From Deltaproteobacteria bacterium RBG_13_61_14 (GTDB lineage: Bacteria; RBG-13-61-14), in assembly GCA_001797815.1 (NCBI GenBank), contig MGQK01000039.1, positions 1 to 9,250 on the forward strand: a DNA stretch of 9,250 nucleotides, in the 5' to 3' direction. Under the pieces are notes generated by a model. That model saw only the letters and a program-made list of their open reading frames with translations. It had not been told where the DNA came from and did no database searches. Both the position numbers and the translations under genes were made by a program. Positions 1,877 to 9,040 of this stretch are shown here, piece after piece. Each line of letters opens with the position of its first letter. The first letter of the stretch is position 1.

Positions 1877-4084
1877 TCATTGGGCATAACCCAGAGCCTG
1901 CAGGGCCCTGCGGGTCTGAAAGTCGAGCGGCGGGGGTCCTTCCGCTTGGGGGGAAACATGGGTCAGCCGGAACAGGTTGATGCGATGGCTTAATTCGAGC
2001 TTGATCTCAAGTTGCTGCGAGATCAGGTTTTTTTGCTCGAGCGGGTCCTCGGCCAGGTCGTAGAGTTCATCGGCTTCCTTGGTATCCCAGATCAGTTTAT
2101 AGGGCCATTGGATTACCGCTTTTTGGCTTCGATTGAGGCGCTGGGTGTCAAAACCCGTCGGGCATCGGCCTTGGAGCTGGTTTATTCTAATCCAGGGAGG
2201 GGAAGCCTCGGCGAAAAGGACCTCACCGCCCTCTTTCTCCTTCAGGGCGTCTTCCAGCGACCGATGGTTGAGCAAAGCGAAAACGATGTCGGGGAGGCGG
2301 GTCAGGGAGACAGGCTGGGTGATGTGGGCCGGGGCCAGGTTGGGGGGGCCGTAAATCAGCAGGGGCACCCAAAGTTGAGACTGATACAGAAAAAAATCAT
2401 GCCCGAAAAATTGATGGTCTCCCAGCCCCTCCCCATGATCACTCAGCACGATCAGGATGGTATTGTCCAGGAGATTCGCTCGCTCCAGGCGGGAATAGAG
2501 CTGGCTCAATTTCAGGTCCAGGTAATAGATCGCCCCATCATATCTTTTCGTAATATACGAGAGCTCTTTTTCGTTGTTGACTTTATTACAATTGAAATAG
2601 GTCCAGTCACTAAATCGAGTTGCGGATCTTAGGTCGGACGGGTCCGATTCCGCAATAAAGTGGAAAGTGTCCTGGGCGGAAGGATAAGGCAAATGCGCTT
2701 CCATGTAGTTGATGAAAATGAAGAAGGGGGCTTTCTGCCGGGAAAGCCGTTTTACCCATGAGAAGATCACCTGGTCGGTCTTTTGCGCGCCCTTGTCTTG
2801 AAGAAATTCGGGACGGAAAATGCCTGTGGCAAACCGATGGGCTAATCCACCGGAGAAAATGTCGAACGGGGACCTCTCCACTAAGCGCTCAAATCCCTGA
2901 CAAATACGGGAAAAGCGGGACAAAAATGGATTGTTGGAGTAAGCCAGGGTCACATAGCCTTTTTCCTGCAACTCTTCGGCCAGGGTATTAAAATCGTCTG
3001 AAAGTCTAAAATGATCCCAATCACAATGATGTTCCGAAGGATACAGCCCGGTGAAAAAAGAGGCATGAGAAGGAAGGGTCCAAGGAGCGGCCGAATAAGC
3101 CCGGTCAAACACCACCGAGTGGGGGGCCAGCTTATCCAAAAAGGGCGTGGTCGGGCGGGAGTAGCCATACAAGGAAAGATGGTCCGCCCTCACCGTATCC
3201 CAGACCATCATGATAATGTTGGGCGACTTGGAAGTGGCTTCCGGGCTCTTCACCGTCCCAGGGAGACTTCCCTCTTCCGCAGTGTTTCCCTGCTCCCAGC
3301 CGGACAAGAAAATTCGACCCCATTCCCGCACCGGGAGCAAGACCAGCCAAAGACTAAAAGCCAGCAAGCCCAGACCCAGATATTTCTCGAGCGGAAAGAC
3401 CCAGGCCTTCTTTCGGTGCCACCGGCTGGGCAAAATGCCCAGAGCAAGACCAAGACCCGAAATGATGAGAAGCAGACCGATCACCCTGGCAAAGGAAAGA
3501 ATCGAAATTTCAGGCAAGTTTGCGAGGACGAACCGGAACAGGTTAAAATTTAAAAAGACCGCCACTCCGAGAAAAAAAGCAAACTCGAATCCATAGTTCC
3601 TTTTGAATCCCCACTGGATGCCCAGGAAAACTCCTTTCCCGATCAAATAGGAAAACAGGGCGATCAGCGCCAGAGAAAACATTTGAAACCTCGGCATCAA
3701 AGTGGAGAGGATTTGATTTAAAAGCACGACCGCGCCGAAGATCAAGAACAGGGAGATGCCGGCGCCGGCAACGAACTCTTTCATCCGGCCGGCCCTGGCG
3801 CTATTTTTTTGGGATAAAAACCATAGGGGCAAGATCGCGAGACCCACGAGACCCGCCCCCAGCAAGTAGGCGATCAGATTCAAACGGAGCGTGATGGACA
3901 GCAAGAGATCCCAGAATTGTTTCCAGTCCCCGGCAGGGTTGAGGATATTCTTATTAACGGGGTTGTGCCAGAAATTAAAAAAGGGAAACCAGATTTCCAG
4001 GAGGGCGATCAGCACGGCCAGCGCAAAAAGAAAAAGGGCAAGCCACCTCCAGGGGAGATCTCGCCATTCTTTGGGGCCATTCAT
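1877..4084 (-). CDS. Membrane-anchored sulfatase-fold hydrolase/transferase, Thr-type (paralogue 1)
   Basis: A 735-residue alkaline-phosphatase-superfamily protein. Residues 1-255 hold about seven hydrophobic segments (near 13-36, 64-88, 104-128, 134-158, 166-186, 196-218, 234-252, by eye). An odd number with a basic N-terminus puts the C-terminal domain outside the cytoplasm. The sulfatase fold runs from about 288: NIIMMVWDTVRAD (D296, metal ligand), the signature TLPSHASFFTG (T336 where sulfatases have Cys/Ser, H340 where they have Arg), NYMEAHLPYP (H464), LSDHGEGLGDH (D549, H550), H562, and the ELYDL-DP-E-KNL motif near 674-687 typical of sulfatase C-terminal subdomains. It ends in the family-like LQALGYAQ. 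Formylglycine cannot be made from Thr, so this is probably not a classical sulfatase; a phosphodiesterase or head-group transferase is possible. Start: ATG 4084, 10 nt after AAAAGGCGG; a TTG at 4132 would add 16 residues. It has a close paralogue transcribed divergently from 4501, and lower G+C than the flanks. Confidence 0.9.
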   Translation of the reverse strand: MNGPKEWRDLPWRWLALFLFALAVLIALLEIWFPFFNFWHNPVNKNILNPAGDWKQFWDLLLSITLRLNLIAYLLGAGLVGLAILPLWFLSQKNSARAGRMKEFVAGAGISLFLIFGAVVLLNQILSTLMPRFQMFSLALIALFSYLIGKGVFLGIQWGFKRNYGFEFAFFLGVAVFLNFNLFRFVLANLPEISILSFARVIGLLLIISGLGLALGILPSRWHRKKAWVFPLEKYLGLGLLAFSLWLVLLPVREWGRIFLSGWEQGNTAEEGSLPGTVKSPEATSKSPNIIMMVWDTVRADHLSLYGYSRPTTPFLDKLAPHSVVFDRAYSAAPWTLPSHASFFTGLYPSEHHCDWDHFRLSDDFNTLAEELQEKGYVTLAYSNNPFLSRFSRICQGFERLVERSPFDIFSGGLAHRFATGIFRPEFLQDKGAQKTDQVIFSWVKRLSRQKAPFFIFINYMEAHLPYPSAQDTFHFIAESDPSDLRSATRFSDWTYFNCNKVNNEKELSYITKRYDGAIYYLDLKLSQLYSRLERANLLDNTILIVLSDHGEGLGDHQFFGHDFFLYQSQLWVPLLIYGPPNLAPAHITQPVSLTRLPDIVFALLNHRSLEDALKEKEGGEVLFAEASPPWIRINQLQGRCPTGFDTQRLNRSQKAVIQWPYKLIWDTKEADELYDLAEDPLEQKNLISQQLEIKLELSHRINLFRLTHVSPQAEGPPPLDFQTRRALQALGYAQ

Positions 4085-4155
4085 TTGATCGTTGCCGCCT
4101 TTTCCCCCGCGGGTCGAGAAAGGGTTGCACAAAGTTAACCAGTGGGCTTTTTTTA

Positions 4156-4184
4156 AGCATAATCCAGCGACCGCTTCGAGTCAA
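4156..4184 (-). promoter_or_regulatory. Sigma70-type promoter of sulfatase-like paralogue 1
   Basis: Minus strand TTGACT (4184-4179), 17-bp spacer, TATGCT (4161-4156): 5/6 and 4/6 matches to consensus with ideal spacing. It predicts a start near 4149 and a leader of about 65 nt to ATG 4084. A second TTGACA lies 16 bp further upstream (4200-4195) but has no matching -10, so it may be part of an activator site or chance. Confidence 0.6.
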
Positions 4185-4243
4185 GCTTATGTTCTGTCAA
4201 ACCCTAAATGCCCTGATACCAGCGCAGCCCGCTCCAGCAACAT

Positions 4244-4326
4244 TCACCCTCCGGTAATCGCCTCGTCGGTGAAGCCAATCATCAGCTTGGGTGCGATACT
4301 CTTCACCAGGCACTTCCCCGGTGAAG
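4244..4326. repeat. Interleaved TTCACC/GGTGAA inverted repeats
   Basis: In order: TTCACC (4244-4249), GGTGAAG (4268-4274), CTTCACC (4301-4307), GGTGAAG (4320-4326). The last two form a perfect 7-bp inverted repeat with a 12-nt spacer, extendable by two G-C pairs after one mismatch. The first two form a 6-bp inverted repeat, and CTTCACC could instead pair with the upstream GGTGAAG. This could be a pair of operator palindromes or, if transcribed, alternative hairpins. Confidence 0.45.
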
Positions 4327-4408
4327 GTTTAAGAACGAGGAACACCTTTTTCTTTTACCAGGATGGTGCTCTTTTTATTCGGCTTATCAGGGAATAAGGG
4401 CCAAAATC

Positions 4409-4438
4409 TTGACACGCAGTATTAGTTCCCGTTAAACT
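4409..4438 (+). promoter_or_regulatory. Sigma70-type promoter of sulfatase-like paralogue 2
   Basis: A consensus TTGACA (4409-4414), 18-bp spacer, and TAAACT (4433-4438, 4/6 match). It predicts a start near 4445 and a leader of about 55 nt before ATG 4501. Confidence 0.55.
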
Positions 4439-4500
4439 CAATACATGCCCTCGCAAGTTTCGGTTTCCCCACCTTCTCGAGAGGCCCTTAGGACACTCTG

Positions 4501-6729
4501 ATGCCCCACCGTTCCAAGCAACCTCTCCTGATAAATGGCTGGTCCTGTCTTTTTCTGGTCCTGTTCTCTTTCTTGCTGGCTCTGGGAGAGGTTTTGGCCC
4601 TTCCCATTTTTTATGCCCTGACCAGACCTGGACACTCCACCATGTTGCCGCGCAGGGGCTTTCCGGTTCTGGGCAGAGAATTCGAAGCCCAATTCCTATG
4701 GGATACCTTAAATTCCCAAGCGGTGCACTTGAATATTTTATGCTACTTGGCGGCAGTGCTTCTGGGAGCGCTTTTAGTGTTGCCGGCAGCTCTGATCTTG
4801 CGGAAATACAATCGCCTCTCCCCTAGTCGCCAAGGGATCCTAATGGGGTTGATTCTTATCGCTCCATTGCTTTTCAACCTGATATTCATTGAGACCCAAC
4901 TGATGTCCTTTCTCCTACCTTGGTTCATTCTTGCCTTGCAAAGCTTGTTCTTCCTGATTGCGGCGGCGCTCTTGGCCGTCATGGTCCGGGTTACCCACCG
5001 CGGAGTGGCGAGCGGACAAGGTTTACGACCGGGCGTGCTCTTGGGCCTGGGCCTTTTCCTGTTTTTCAACTTTCTGCGTGGGGCCTTCTTAAATATCAGT
5101 TCTTTAATCGCAGGAAGGATTGCTTGGGTGGCGGGGCTAGTGTTGGCTTGGGGTCTCTTTTTCCTTGGATTGAATTTTTTCCTCGGCTACCTCCAAAGAA
5201 AATGGCCCCGGATCGTCCCCCTGGAAAAGGCCCTGGCCCTGGGCATGGTCTTCTTTGGTGGCCTGATCCTTACCGTCCCGGTTTGGGAGTGGAGCAAAAT
5301 CTATTTCAAGGGTCCACCCTCACCAATCAACGCCTGGCAAACTCAGAGCGGCTCCCCCTCCGATATCTCGAAGGAGGCCGAATTGCCCAATGTCATTCTG
5401 ATTGTTTGGGACACAGTCCGGGCCGACCATTTGTCGCTCTACGGCTATTCCCGGCCCACCACTCCCTTCCTGGAGCACTTGGCGGAACAAGCGGTGGTCT
5501 TTGACCGGGCCTATGCCACCGCCCCGTGGACCTTACCCTCTCATGCCAGCTTTTTCACCGGGCTTTTTCTTTCGGAACACCATTGCGATTCTTTCACTCA
5601 TCGCCTCTCCGATCAATACCTGACCTTGGCCGAAAAGCTATCCGCCTCGGGTTATGTTACCTTGGGCTATTCCAACAATTATTCCCTTAATCGCATCACC
5701 GGGATGGCCCAAGGGTTTGACCATTTTGTCGTGAACTCGCCGATCGGTTCTTTTTCCGGCGAGCTGGTCTTCCAGTTTGTAACCCGAGTGTTTCAACCCC
5801 AATTCCAGGCCGACAATGGAGCGAAGCGGACCGAGAGAGTTCTGTCCCGATGGTGGAAATGGCTTTCCCACACTCGGGCTCCCTTTTTCCTGTTCATCAA
5901 TTACATGGAAGCCCATATTCCTTATCCCTCAGACGAAGAGGTCTTCCATTTTTCCAAAGATCCGCTCGAAACGCGCAATAGCCGAATCAGCCAGGCGCAT
6001 GATTTTGATTTTTTCAATTGTCAGTCTAGTCTGCCTGAAAGCGAAACCGTCGCGATTCAGGATTTGTACGACGGCTCGATCTATTATCTGGACAACCACT
6101 TCCGCCGGTTGTTTGAACAACTGGAGCAAGCCAGGCTCTTAGACCACACCATTATTATCCTGCTTAGCGATCATGGAGAATCCTTGGGGGAACATGGCTA
6201 TTATGGACATAATTTGTTCCTTTACGAAAACCTGCTTCACGTGCCTTTGGTGGTTTACTACCCCAAGCGCTTGCCGGCCATCCGCATGACGGCTCCCTAC
6301 TCCCTCGTCCACTTGCCCCGGCTCGTGGAAACACTGATTCAGGGACAGTTTCCCGAGGATATTTCCTCCGCTCCCACTGTCCCTATTTATGCCGAAGTTT
6401 CTCCGGTCGTTTTGGAAATGAACAACTTCAAGAAACGATGCCCCCGCGCGTTTGATGCCGATTTGCTCGGCCGCCGACTCAAAACCGTGATTAGATGGCC
6501 CGATAAGCTGATCTGGGACGCGCAAGGCCAGGACGAACTTTACAACCTGGATCTGGATCCCGCGGAAACGAAGAACCTGGTGGCCAGCGAACCTCAAACT
6601 TATCGGCAACTTCAGCATTTGATTAACATTTTTCGACTGGCCCATCCCGGACCGGAGATCCCCGGAGAACCGCCGCCTCTGGATTTTCATACGCGCCAGG
6701 TTCTGGAGGCCCTTGGCTATGCTCACTGA
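4501..6729 (+). CDS. Membrane-anchored sulfatase-fold hydrolase/transferase, Thr-type (paralogue 2)
   Basis: A 742-residue paralogue of the protein at 1877-4084, collinear along its whole length. About seven hydrophobic segments (near 14-40, 76-100, 112-130, 135-163, 178-198, 205-230, 243-262, by eye) precede an extracytoplasmic sulfatase-fold domain. Active-site signatures: NVILIVWDTVRAD (D304), TLPSHASFFTG (T344 at the formylglycine position, H348 in place of Arg), NYMEAHIPYP (H472), LLSDHGESLGEH (D557, H558), H570, and DELYNL-DP-E-KNL near 678-692. Three ectodomain cysteines are shared with the paralogue (C362, C507, C647). ATG 4501 follows TTAGGA with a 7-nt spacer and begins a basic, then hydrophobic N-terminus like the paralogue's. 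The likely role is hydrolysis or transfer of a phosphate- or sulfate-type group on an envelope substrate; the substrate cannot be told from sequence. No formylglycine-generating enzyme is visible in the window, which fits the Thr nucleophile. Confidence 0.9.
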   Translation: MPHRSKQPLLINGWSCLFLVLFSFLLALGEVLALPIFYALTRPGHSTMLPRRGFPVLGREFEAQFLWDTLNSQAVHLNILCYLAAVLLGALLVLPAALILRKYNRLSPSRQGILMGLILIAPLLFNLIFIETQLMSFLLPWFILALQSLFFLIAAALLAVMVRVTHRGVASGQGLRPGVLLGLGLFLFFNFLRGAFLNISSLIAGRIAWVAGLVLAWGLFFLGLNFFLGYLQRKWPRIVPLEKALALGMVFFGGLILTVPVWEWSKIYFKGPPSPINAWQTQSGSPSDISKEAELPNVILIVWDTVRADHLSLYGYSRPTTPFLEHLAEQAVVFDRAYATAPWTLPSHASFFTGLFLSEHHCDSFTHRLSDQYLTLAEKLSASGYVTLGYSNNYSLNRITGMAQGFDHFVVNSPIGSFSGELVFQFVTRVFQPQFQADNGAKRTERVLSRWWKWLSHTRAPFFLFINYMEAHIPYPSDEEVFHFSKDPLETRNSRISQAHDFDFFNCQSSLPESETVAIQDLYDGSIYYLDNHFRRLFEQLEQARLLDHTIIILLSDHGESLGEHGYYGHNLFLYENLLHVPLVVYYPKRLPAIRMTAPYSLVHLPRLVETLIQGQFPEDISSAPTVPIYAEVSPVVLEMNNFKKRCPRAFDADLLGRRLKTVIRWPDKLIWDAQGQDELYNLDLDPAETKNLVASEPQTYRQLQHLINIFRLAHPGPEIPGEPPPLDFHTRQVLEALGYAH

Positions 6730-6920: not shown

Positions 6921-8048
6921 TTATCCTCGAAGCGGGAACCTCCCCTCTTGCTCGATGACTTCGCTCACCGCCCGCAGGTTTTCCCAGGTCGCGGTCTTGG
7001 GCGTGGCGTCGCCGGAGCCGAGGACGTAGCCGCGGCCGCGGTCCTTCAGGTCGCGCAGCAAGTTGCGCGCGTAATCTTTCATCTGCCCGGGCGTCAAGCT
7101 GGAAAAGGCGGTGGCGTCAATCCCGCCGGTGATCGCTTTCCCTGGTCCCCAGAGCTCGCGCGCTTCGCGGAGCGTGATCGAGCCGGTGGGCGGGATGGCG
7201 ACGTCGGTGCAGCCGTCGAAGCGGGCCTGGCGGAAGGCGGCGCCGAAGGCTTTGAGGTGGCCGCAGTTGTGCTGGAGGAAAATTTTTCCGGCCGCGTGGA
7301 GGATGTCGGCATATTCATTAATGCAAGGGAGAGTGTATCTTTCCCAGAGCCGGGGGGAGCAGAGGGTGGAAGAGAGGTTTTCATACTGGATGACCACCTC
7401 GCCCGGCCCCTCGGCAATCGCCCGAAACATGCGGAGGTTCATCTGGTGCACGGCTTCGAAATACTCTTCCATCTCCGCGGGATGGTCGGCGTAGAGGAAC
7501 CAGAACTTGTCGAGCGTGGTCTCGGCGTTGATGGTCCATTGGATGGGCGTGCCCAGGGCCGAGATGGTGGCGAGCCCGTCATCGCCCACCGCCTTGTCCG
7601 CCGGGTCGAAGAACCCGGGCACGGGCGCGAACTCGGCCTTCTCGCACATCCACTTTAGCACCTTGACGTCCTCGATGGTCTGGAGCCGGTGCCGGGTGGT
7701 CCAGGGGATGTTGGGAGACTCCGGGTTGAACTTGTAGCGCTCCATCAGGGTGCCCACCGGGCATTCGTAAGTGACCTCGGTCTCTTCCCCTACCCGGCGC
7801 TGGCGGATGGTAAAGGCCAAGGTTTTGCCGGGCGGCGGGGCCGTGATCCGCATGGGCACCGAGCCGATGAAGTTGAGCACGTGCCGGACCATGGCATCGG
7901 CCCGGATCTGCCGAAAGGCGGTGATCTGGTCCACCCGGGTGCCCAGGAAGTATCCGTCCAGACAAGGCGACCAGGGGATGCGGTCCACCTCCTGGCCGCG
8001 AAGCGCAGCCAACAGCCGCTCGCGCCGGCTCATGGTTTCGGTGGACAT
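6921..8048 (-). CDS. Uroporphyrinogen decarboxylase (URO-D) family protein, methyltransferase-like
   Basis: A 375-residue protein of the URO-D TIM-barrel family, which covers HemE and corrinoid/cobalamin methyltransferases such as MtaA and CmuA. The N-terminus, MSRRERLLAALRGQEVDRIPWSP, is the family's usual opening (residues 6-28). The HemE signature RQAGRYLPEY is absent, so haem biosynthesis is unlikely. The metal-binding HxC motif of methyltransferase members is present as LQHNCGHL (H260, C262). However, the later glycine-rich loop that carries the third ligand reads GSGDATP (344-350), with Asp rather than Cys. The tail TWENLRAVSEVIEQEG is also family-like. I chose ATG 8048 because it overlaps the upstream stop as TGATG and has GGAAAGGGG just ahead; a longer frame reaching 8117 would overlap the neighbour by 70 bp. 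It is probably co-transcribed with and translationally coupled to the kinase-like gene. The likely role is methyl-group or one-carbon transfer with unknown substrate; no corrinoid-protein gene is visible. Confidence 0.87.
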   Translation of the reverse strand: MSTETMSRRERLLAALRGQEVDRIPWSPCLDGYFLGTRVDQITAFRQIRADAMVRHVLNFIGSVPMRITAPPPGKTLAFTIRQRRVGEETEVTYECPVGTLMERYKFNPESPNIPWTTRHRLQTIEDVKVLKWMCEKAEFAPVPGFFDPADKAVGDDGLATISALGTPIQWTINAETTLDKFWFLYADHPAEMEEYFEAVHQMNLRMFRAIAEGPGEVVIQYENLSSTLCSPRLWERYTLPCINEYADILHAAGKIFLQHNCGHLKAFGAAFRQARFDGCTDVAIPPTGSITLREARELWGPGKAITGGIDATAFSSLTPGQMKDYARNLLRDLKDRGRGYVLGSGDATPKTATWENLRAVSEVIEQEGRFPLRG

Positions 8049-9040
8049 CACCGCCCCTTTCCCATGAGTTGATCCAATTCCAGCCGGGAGCCCGGCGACC
8101 AGCCCAGTTCCAGGCAAGGCACTTGCCCGAGGATGGCCAGGAGCTTTTGTCGGTAGAGATCGTGGTAGTGCTTCTCCCCTGCCTTGGCCAACACTCGATC
8201 GAACCCGTGCATCTCGTGATGATCAATGGCCGCAATCAAGTCCGCGGCTTCTTCAGCCGGGATTTCCTGAAGATCCTTGACTGCTCCGGGCGTGACGATG
8301 ATCACGGTCGCCAGCGGCACCTCATCCAGGAACCGGATTCCCGGAAAGATCCGGCTCACCGGGCATTTATACGCAAAGCGGACTTTATTGAAAAGCAGTT
8401 GGCGGACCGCGGTCCGGGCCAGGATGGCAAACTGGTCGGAGAAGGGCAACCCCCGGAGCTTGGGCGTCTCGATCAAGTTACGCGCCCCGAGGCGGAGTGG
8501 GGTCACGTAGGCCAGGGCTTTGCCCGGCGCCAGGATGGTGTAGTCGTCGGAGAGGAAGGGGTGGCCCTGGCTGAGCCATTGCAAGAGGAGCGTGGTCTTG
8601 CCGGTGGTAGCGCCGGCCGCGACGACTACGCCGGTTTCGCCGTCAGAAAGGCAGGTGGAGTGAACCGGGGGAAAGCCTTGACGGGTGAGCCAGTAGCGAA
8701 GCGCCGGCTCCACGATCCGCTTGGTGACGATGAAACGGCTGAGGCGGTTGCCGCGAAACCTAAGCCGGAGCGGGGCCTGATCCAGGCGTGAAAGCTCGAC
8801 CTGCCAGGCCGCGGCGCGATAGGTGCCGGAGGGCGGACCCTGAAACCCCAGGCTAAGCTCGGCCCCCAAGTCGAGTTGACCTAACCTCTCAGGGTCGGCC
8901 AGGTGATGGGCGAACTCCTGTGCCGCTGGCGCCAGGAGCCATTCCGGGCCGGAGATCACGGCCCGGCAAAGGTCGTGCAGGTTGACAGCGAGAGTGGAGG
9001 GCACGATCAGTAACCTATCAATTCCCAGGGTTATGGTCAA
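8048..9040 (-). CDS. HPr kinase/phosphorylase C-terminal-like P-loop protein
   Basis: A 330-residue protein whose centre matches the HprK C-terminal/PEP-carboxykinase-like kinase fold: H127 in PVHSTCL, then VVVAAGATTGKTTLL (Walker A, K148) and HPFLSDDYTIL (D165, D166, the metal-binding acid pair of HprK-like kinases). The first 110 residues have no domain I recognise and are not the normal HprK N-terminal domain. True HprK phosphorylates HPr in sugar regulation; no HPr or PTS gene is seen here, and many such orphans have unknown targets, so the substrate is open. The frame has a TGA two codons upstream of TTG 9040, which is therefore the earliest possible start. GTG 9004 (codon 13) is an alternative, and neither has a strong Shine-Dalgarno. 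The gene is followed with one-base overlap by the URO-D-like gene and lies divergent to polX. Confidence 0.8.
   Translation of the reverse strand: MTITLGIDRLLIVPSTLAVNLHDLCRAVISGPEWLLAPAAQEFAHHLADPERLGQLDLGAELSLGFQGPPSGTYRAAAWQVELSRLDQAPLRLRFRGNRLSRFIVTKRIVEPALRYWLTRQGFPPVHSTCLSDGETGVVVAAGATTGKTTLLLQWLSQGHPFLSDDYTILAPGKALAYVTPLRLGARNLIETPKLRGLPFSDQFAILARTAVRQLLFNKVRFAYKCPVSRIFPGIRFLDEVPLATVIIVTPGAVKDLQEIPAEEAADLIAAIDHHEMHGFDRVLAKAGEKHYHDLYRQKLLAILGQVPCLELGWSPGSRLELDQLMGKGR

Follow-up and report, generated by a model that had tools for sequence, protein, structure and literature searches.

Two divergent PF00884 proteins with threonine at the sulfatase nucleophile position and predicted active sites resembling those of phosphate-group transferases

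Database profiles label the proteins P0001 and P0002 as sulfatases; their active sites, as read from aligned sequence, match those of phosphate-group transferases instead. We computed open reading frames, residue conservation, predicted fold and the loss of sulfatase-specific residues for both proteins. They are most likely surface phosphotransferases or phosphodiesterases, a prediction made from sequence, and true sulfatase activity is unlikely. P0001 and P0002 are two members of a lineage-specific triplet within a large Thr-type class of PF00884 proteins, and add to a kind of protein that is already known but has been poorly characterised.

Gene pair and active-site residues

The window, the whole stretch of DNA analysed, comprises bases 1 through 9,250 of contig C39 (48.5 kb) in a 4.7-Mb draft genome. 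P0001 and P0002 are two intact open reading frames within it, divergent and back to back. P0001 is open from a TTG, from which its residues are numbered here; the likely ATG start is residue 17 (position 4084) and gives a protein of 735 aa in which the Thr of interest is T336. Each protein has about seven predicted transmembrane helices, with all hydropathy segments before residue 300, followed by an alkaline-phosphatase-superfamily ectodomain; the same count gives five segments for EptA and LapC. In the following list, the active-site residues were placed by alignment, and T344 of P0002 by alignment and model.

1877..4132, minus strand: P0001, first paralogue, a predicted Thr-type membrane enzyme of PF00884; 751 aa when read from TTG, with the ATG at 4084 as the likely start
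3284..4042, minus strand: N-terminal membrane part of P0001; seven hydropathy segments, residues 31-283
3197..3199, minus strand: P0001 D312, predicted metal-ligand position (Glu240 of EptA, Glu246 of MCR-1)
3077..3079, minus strand: P0001 T352 (T336 from ATG), predicted nucleophile
3065..3067, minus strand: P0001 H356, where the sulfatase signature has Arg
2693..2695, minus strand: P0001 H480 of MEAH (His395 of MCR-1)
2435..2440, minus strand: P0001 D565-H566 of SDHGE, predicted metal-ligand positions (Asp465-His466 of MCR-1)
2399..2401, minus strand: P0001 H578 of GHD (His478 of MCR-1; Lys in sulfatases)
4133..4500, unstranded: intergenic stretch between P0001 and P0002, with promoter-like sites on both strands
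4501..6729, plus strand: P0002, predicted Thr-type PF00884 membrane enzyme, paralogue 2; 742 aa, Thr = T344
4501..5304, plus strand: N-terminal membrane part of P0002; seven hydropathy segments, residues 1-268
5410..5412, plus strand: P0002 D304, predicted metal-ligand position
5530..5532, plus strand: P0002 T344, predicted nucleophile; first residue of helix 344-353 in the model
5542..5544, plus strand: P0002 H348, where the sulfatase signature has Arg
5914..5916, plus strand: P0002 H472 of MEAH
6169..6174, plus strand: P0002 D557-H558 of SDHGE, predicted metal-ligand positions
6208..6210, plus strand: P0002 H570 of GHN (Lys in sulfatases)

The total of promoter-like sites in 4133..4500 is not clearly above the shuffled expectation.

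Both proteins carry APWTLPSHASFFTGL, WDTVRAD, INYMEAH and SDHGE, and both read T-L-P-S-H at the site where sulfatases read C/S-x-P-S-R. In alignments with solved sulfatases, with E. coli controls (EptA, EptB, EptC, OpgE, YidJ and AslA) and with relatives, the Thr (Thr352 in P0001, Thr344 in P0002) occupies the column in which the solved sulfatases, YidJ and AslA have Cys/Ser, which confirms the claim of a sequence-only reading that two intact divergent genes have Thr at the formylglycine position. The same reading saw the signature Arg replaced by His in both, as we find at +4 (His356 and His348), and described the other landmarks as intact. That description is right for WDTVRAD, MEAH and SDHGE, which hold the predicted metal ligands common to the superfamily. 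The G-K-W-H and second Lys specific to sulfatases are absent, the corresponding columns of P0002 reading YSNNY and GHN. In EfAS, Arg65, Lys110, His112 and Lys324 are each required (PMC12421950), and column comparison finds the counterparts of all four missing in P0001 and P0002. Compared with formylglycine sulfatases, then, both proteins lack Cys/Ser, Arg at +4 and GKWH, have His for Lys and carry an added membrane part.

The residue set is that of the phosphoethanolamine (PEtN) transferases EptA and MCR-1 (with EptB and OpgE), a type whose activity is the transfer of phosphoethanolamine to lipid A or a glycan: a Thr at the nucleophile position, D/E and D-H at the ligand positions, and two further His, in the columns where E. 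coli EptA, EptB and OpgE read E-T-H-D-H-H. An Asn in EptA, OpgE and EptC aligns with N392 of P0002. In MCR-1, Glu246, phospho-Thr285, Asp465 and His466 hold Zn1, while His395, His478 and Asn329 line the site (PMC5031297). An S-D-H-G-E-S-L-G-E segment and a multi-helix N-terminal membrane part are also shared with EptA and MCR-1. P0001 and P0002 differ in their first ligand, which is Asp and not the Glu of EptA, in having seven hydropathy segments rather than five, and in an overall sequence and fold nearer to sulfatases. Lipoteichoic acid synthases of the LtaS type, which transfer glycerol phosphate, have five TM helices.

Predicted fold and profile matches

AlphaFold2 models of P0001 and P0002 have ectodomain cores with pLDDT > 90; the membrane part is poorly predicted (about 40-70). 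Comparison of both ectodomains (residues about 294-728) using VIA-align gives S1 sulfatases, sulfamidase and phosphonate monoester hydrolases as the closest among the matches listed (Z about 32-38; rmsd mostly 2.4-3.8 Å over about 340-397 residues), and both models contain the sulfatase fold together with its C-terminal subdomain. EptA and LtaS are absent among the structural matches listed for either model, an absence that does not exclude kinship. A sequence search brought up no solved structure that contains the T-x-P-S-H region; its best matches to that segment were sulfatases or phosphonate monoester hydrolases. Formylglycine sulfatases (SulfAtlas S1) and phosphonate monoester hydrolases (e.g. 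6hr5, 4upl, 9koq, 2vqr) share the predicted ectodomain fold and the general metal-ligand positions with P0001 and P0002, as well as a C-terminal KLI...ELYDL...DP segment. The closest folds thus indicate a sulfatase-like scaffold, while the active-site residues are transferase-like.

The Pfam assignment to PF00884 (Sulfatase) is strong for both P0001 (E 3e-43, 148.6 bits) and P0002 (E 1e-46, 160.1 bits; cut-off 25 bits). PF01663 (Phosphodiest) is a secondary, weaker match (E 2e-11), also above cut-off. NCBIfam returns weak matches only, to arylsulfatases, choline sulfatase and phosphoethanolamine transferases, all far below their cut-offs; the curated PEtN-transferase family NF028537 scores 52 bits against a cut-off of 500.

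Thr-type relatives and paralogues

Invariant columns of a 27-sequence alignment include P0002 D304, T344, H348, H472, D531, D557, H558, H570 and K669. A wider set, sorted by the residue in the nucleophile column, holds 100 distinct Thr-type and 19 Cys/Ser-type sequences; as it was assembled through similarity to P0002 and PF00884 membership in three related genomes, its counts describe the sample and not nature. Asp304 is present in 95/100 Thr-type relatives, His472 in 98/100, Asp557 and His558 in 97/100 each and His570 in 96/100, and the sulfatase K-W-H in 0/100. The Cys/Ser-type relatives have Arg at +4 in 18/19 cases, G-K-W-H in 18/19 and Lys/Arg at position 570 in 14/19. Invariance of the Thr in the smaller alignment, along with 95-98% conservation of the surrounding active-site residues in the 100 relatives, argues that the Thr did not arise by chance. 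His at +4, found in 69 of the 100 Thr-type sequences (the remainder being mostly hydrophobic there), marks a subgroup. The motif T-x-P-[SA]-H, or one close to it, is also present in relatives from records titled Nitrospinota, Nitrospirae, Planctomycetota, Calditrichota, KSB1, Deltaproteobacteria and Micrarchaeota.

The pair was read earlier as a special duplication, a view that the genome search did not support. P0001 and P0002 are 42% identical to each other, and each shares 44-45% identity with a third paralogue (G000:C9:33734-35884). In a midpoint-rooted FastTree phylogeny the three paralogues form a clade with support of 1.0 (internal order, 0.40), and the Cys/Ser proteins form a clade separate from the Thr-type ones (0.93). 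When two genomes of the same order were searched for the triplet, only the catalytic part was matched and the membrane part gave 0 matches. These two genomes also contain runs of at least three PF00884 genes each, several of them Thr-type (G001:C148:8345-16728 and G002:C648:389-4583).

Nor is the Thr unusual, as had been supposed. Annotation routinely calls Thr-type PF00884 proteins sulfatases; this genome has at least 17 of them (one broken and without the first Asp) against 3 of the Cys type. Thr also occupies half of the PF00884 seed (30/59 sequences) in the part of the SulfAtlas paper that covers it (Barbeyron et al. 2016, PMC5066984). The same part notes that formylglycine formation from Thr has never been demonstrated and that uncharacterised Thr proteins of PF00884 are not to be deemed functional sulfatases without experiments (PMC5066984), so the view of Thr members as non-sulfatases is not new to the literature. 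Its Thr set also has other motifs, e.g. TxNxE, and does not set the T-x-P-S-H subgroup apart in that part of the paper (PMC5066984); among open-access papers we found no name for this subgroup. The Thr-type class is large, widespread and mostly uncharacterised, and Thr is its normal state. Two adjacent Thr-type proteins elsewhere in the genome (G000:C27:15424-18524; L010 and L019) are very large, with open frames of 982 and 905 aa, and lie outside the T-x-P-S-H subgroup.

A residue rule follows the two patterns: Thr combined with His where the second Lys would be, in a protein that lacks GKWH, marks a likely phosphotransferase or phosphodiesterase, and Cys/Ser with Arg and GKWH marks a sulfatase. 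Such a rule would correct sulfatase counts in environmental genomes, and the three paralogues lend themselves to a test.

Proposed chemistry and gene neighbourhoods

We consider it probable that P0001 and P0002 carry out Thr-dependent chemistry on phospho-groups, by transfer or hydrolysis, and not on sulfate; for transfer specifically, the prospects are roughly even. A divalent metal held by the Asp, the Asp-His pair and the nucleophile would activate the Thr, which would attack a phosphodiester outside the cytoplasm, where the ectodomain is predicted to lie. The probable phosphodiester is the head group of a phospholipid or else an activated phospho-donor at the surface. A phospho-Thr intermediate would form, and its phospho-group would then be handed to water or to an acceptor at the surface, either a glycan or a lipid. 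The large membrane part moderately favours group transfer over plain hydrolysis. The earlier proposal of non-sulfatase chemistry is largely supported, and by more than that reading had noticed: a conserved predicted metal/Thr site has the EptA/MCR-1 residue set and lacks what formylglycine sulfatases need. The predicted scaffold is like that of sulfatases and phosphonate monoester hydrolases, C-terminal part included. Also in favour of phospho-group chemistry are the separate clade of the Cys/Ser proteins and the PF01663 phosphodiesterase genes beside the nearest outside relatives L033, L034 and L040. Counterweights are the closeness of sequence and fold to sulfatases and phosphonate monoester hydrolases, a group known for promiscuity, the Asp that replaces the Glu of EptA as first ligand, and the sulfotransferase-type genes beside some distant relatives.

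The nearest relatives outside the genome (L033 and L034, from Nitrospinota and Nitrospirae) also have seven hydropathy segments. Their genes have two or three B12-binding radical SAM genes upstream and a PF01663 phosphodiesterase gene downstream, and the order B12-binding radical SAM, Thr-type PF00884, PF01663 is conserved between them (L033:191-7343 and L034:377-9153); this order possibly reflects a surface lipid or glycan pathway. Other relatives adjoin glycosyltransferase-like, sulfotransferase or arylsulfotransferase genes, and these neighbours together with PF01663 point loosely to surface lipid or glycan modification. More tentatively, and less likely than not, the three copies here could represent an undescribed family of surface phosphotransferases with a sulfatase-type fold, a PEtN-transferase-type Thr/His site and a seven-helix membrane module, acting on a membrane lipid or glycan and having Nitrospinota/Nitrospirae relatives beside B12-binding radical SAM and NPP-type phosphodiesterase genes. 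A Calditrichota locus (L040:1838-10344) has four consecutive phosphoesterase-superfamily genes in the order PF01663, Thr-type PF00884, Thr-type PF00884, PF01663.

A reading that overlaps with our preferred one, and differs from it solely in that the acceptor is water, has P0001 and P0002 as pure hydrolases: extracytoplasmic, NPP-like Thr phosphodiesterases or phosphonate-ester hydrolases that act on external substrates and have no surface acceptor. We regard this as a credible minority possibility. The fold is closest to sulfatases and phosphonate monoester hydrolases, the PF01663 match is above cut-off, and the Thr nucleophile of NPPs (type I phosphodiesterases, PF01663) lies within a T-F-P-N-H motif that resembles T-L-P-S-H, both fitting T-x-P-[SN]-H. 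P0001 and P0002 differ from NPPs in that PF01663 matches them less well than PF00884 does, and in L033, L034 and L040 the NPP-type genes stand apart as neighbours of the Thr-type ones. Against the hydrolase reading, the multi-helix membrane part is nearer to the EptA/LtaS transferase plan than to secreted or single-anchor hydrolases, and the two extra His match PEtN transferases. An improbable alternative is that the ectodomain is kept as a fold only, in a regulatory or lipid-sensing role like that of LapC/YejM, a protein of PF00884 type that likewise has a membrane part but whose residues in matching columns are degraded. LapC differs in reading D-T-I-N-G-R-H in those columns, while all three paralogues retain every predicted catalytic and metal residue, and distant relatives show little or no variation there; this conservation of every predicted catalytic position disfavours a pseudoenzyme.

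Retained sulfate-ester chemistry, with P0001 and P0002 as sulfatases or sulfotransferases that use an unmodified Thr, is the most remote of these readings, and we hold it to be very improbable. It would accord with the PF00884 annotation, the best fold match to S1 sulfatases and the presence of FGE-like PF03781 proteins in the genome, and it is made conceivable by the sulfotransferase-type genes that lie near some distant Thr-type relatives (L043:4740-5696, PF13469; L050:7528-8772, arylsulfotransferase-like). The three Cys-type sulfatases of the genome, however, explain its need for FGE, and the sulfate-handling Arg, Lys-x-His and Lys, whose counterparts EfAS needs (PMC12421950), are all replaced. 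Formation of formylglycine from Thr was rejected on known chemistry, the relevant part of the SulfAtlas paper giving no known route (PMC5066984).

In the window itself, the neighbours of P0001 and P0002 encode an M3 peptidase, a URO-D-like protein and an HprK-like protein. No hint of a substrate came from neighbours in the window, further along the contig as far as 28 kb or around the C9 paralogue. The URO-D/MtaA-like frame (6921-8117, minus strand) overlaps the end of the HprK-like kinase frame (8048-9040, minus strand), which suggests a later start for the former.
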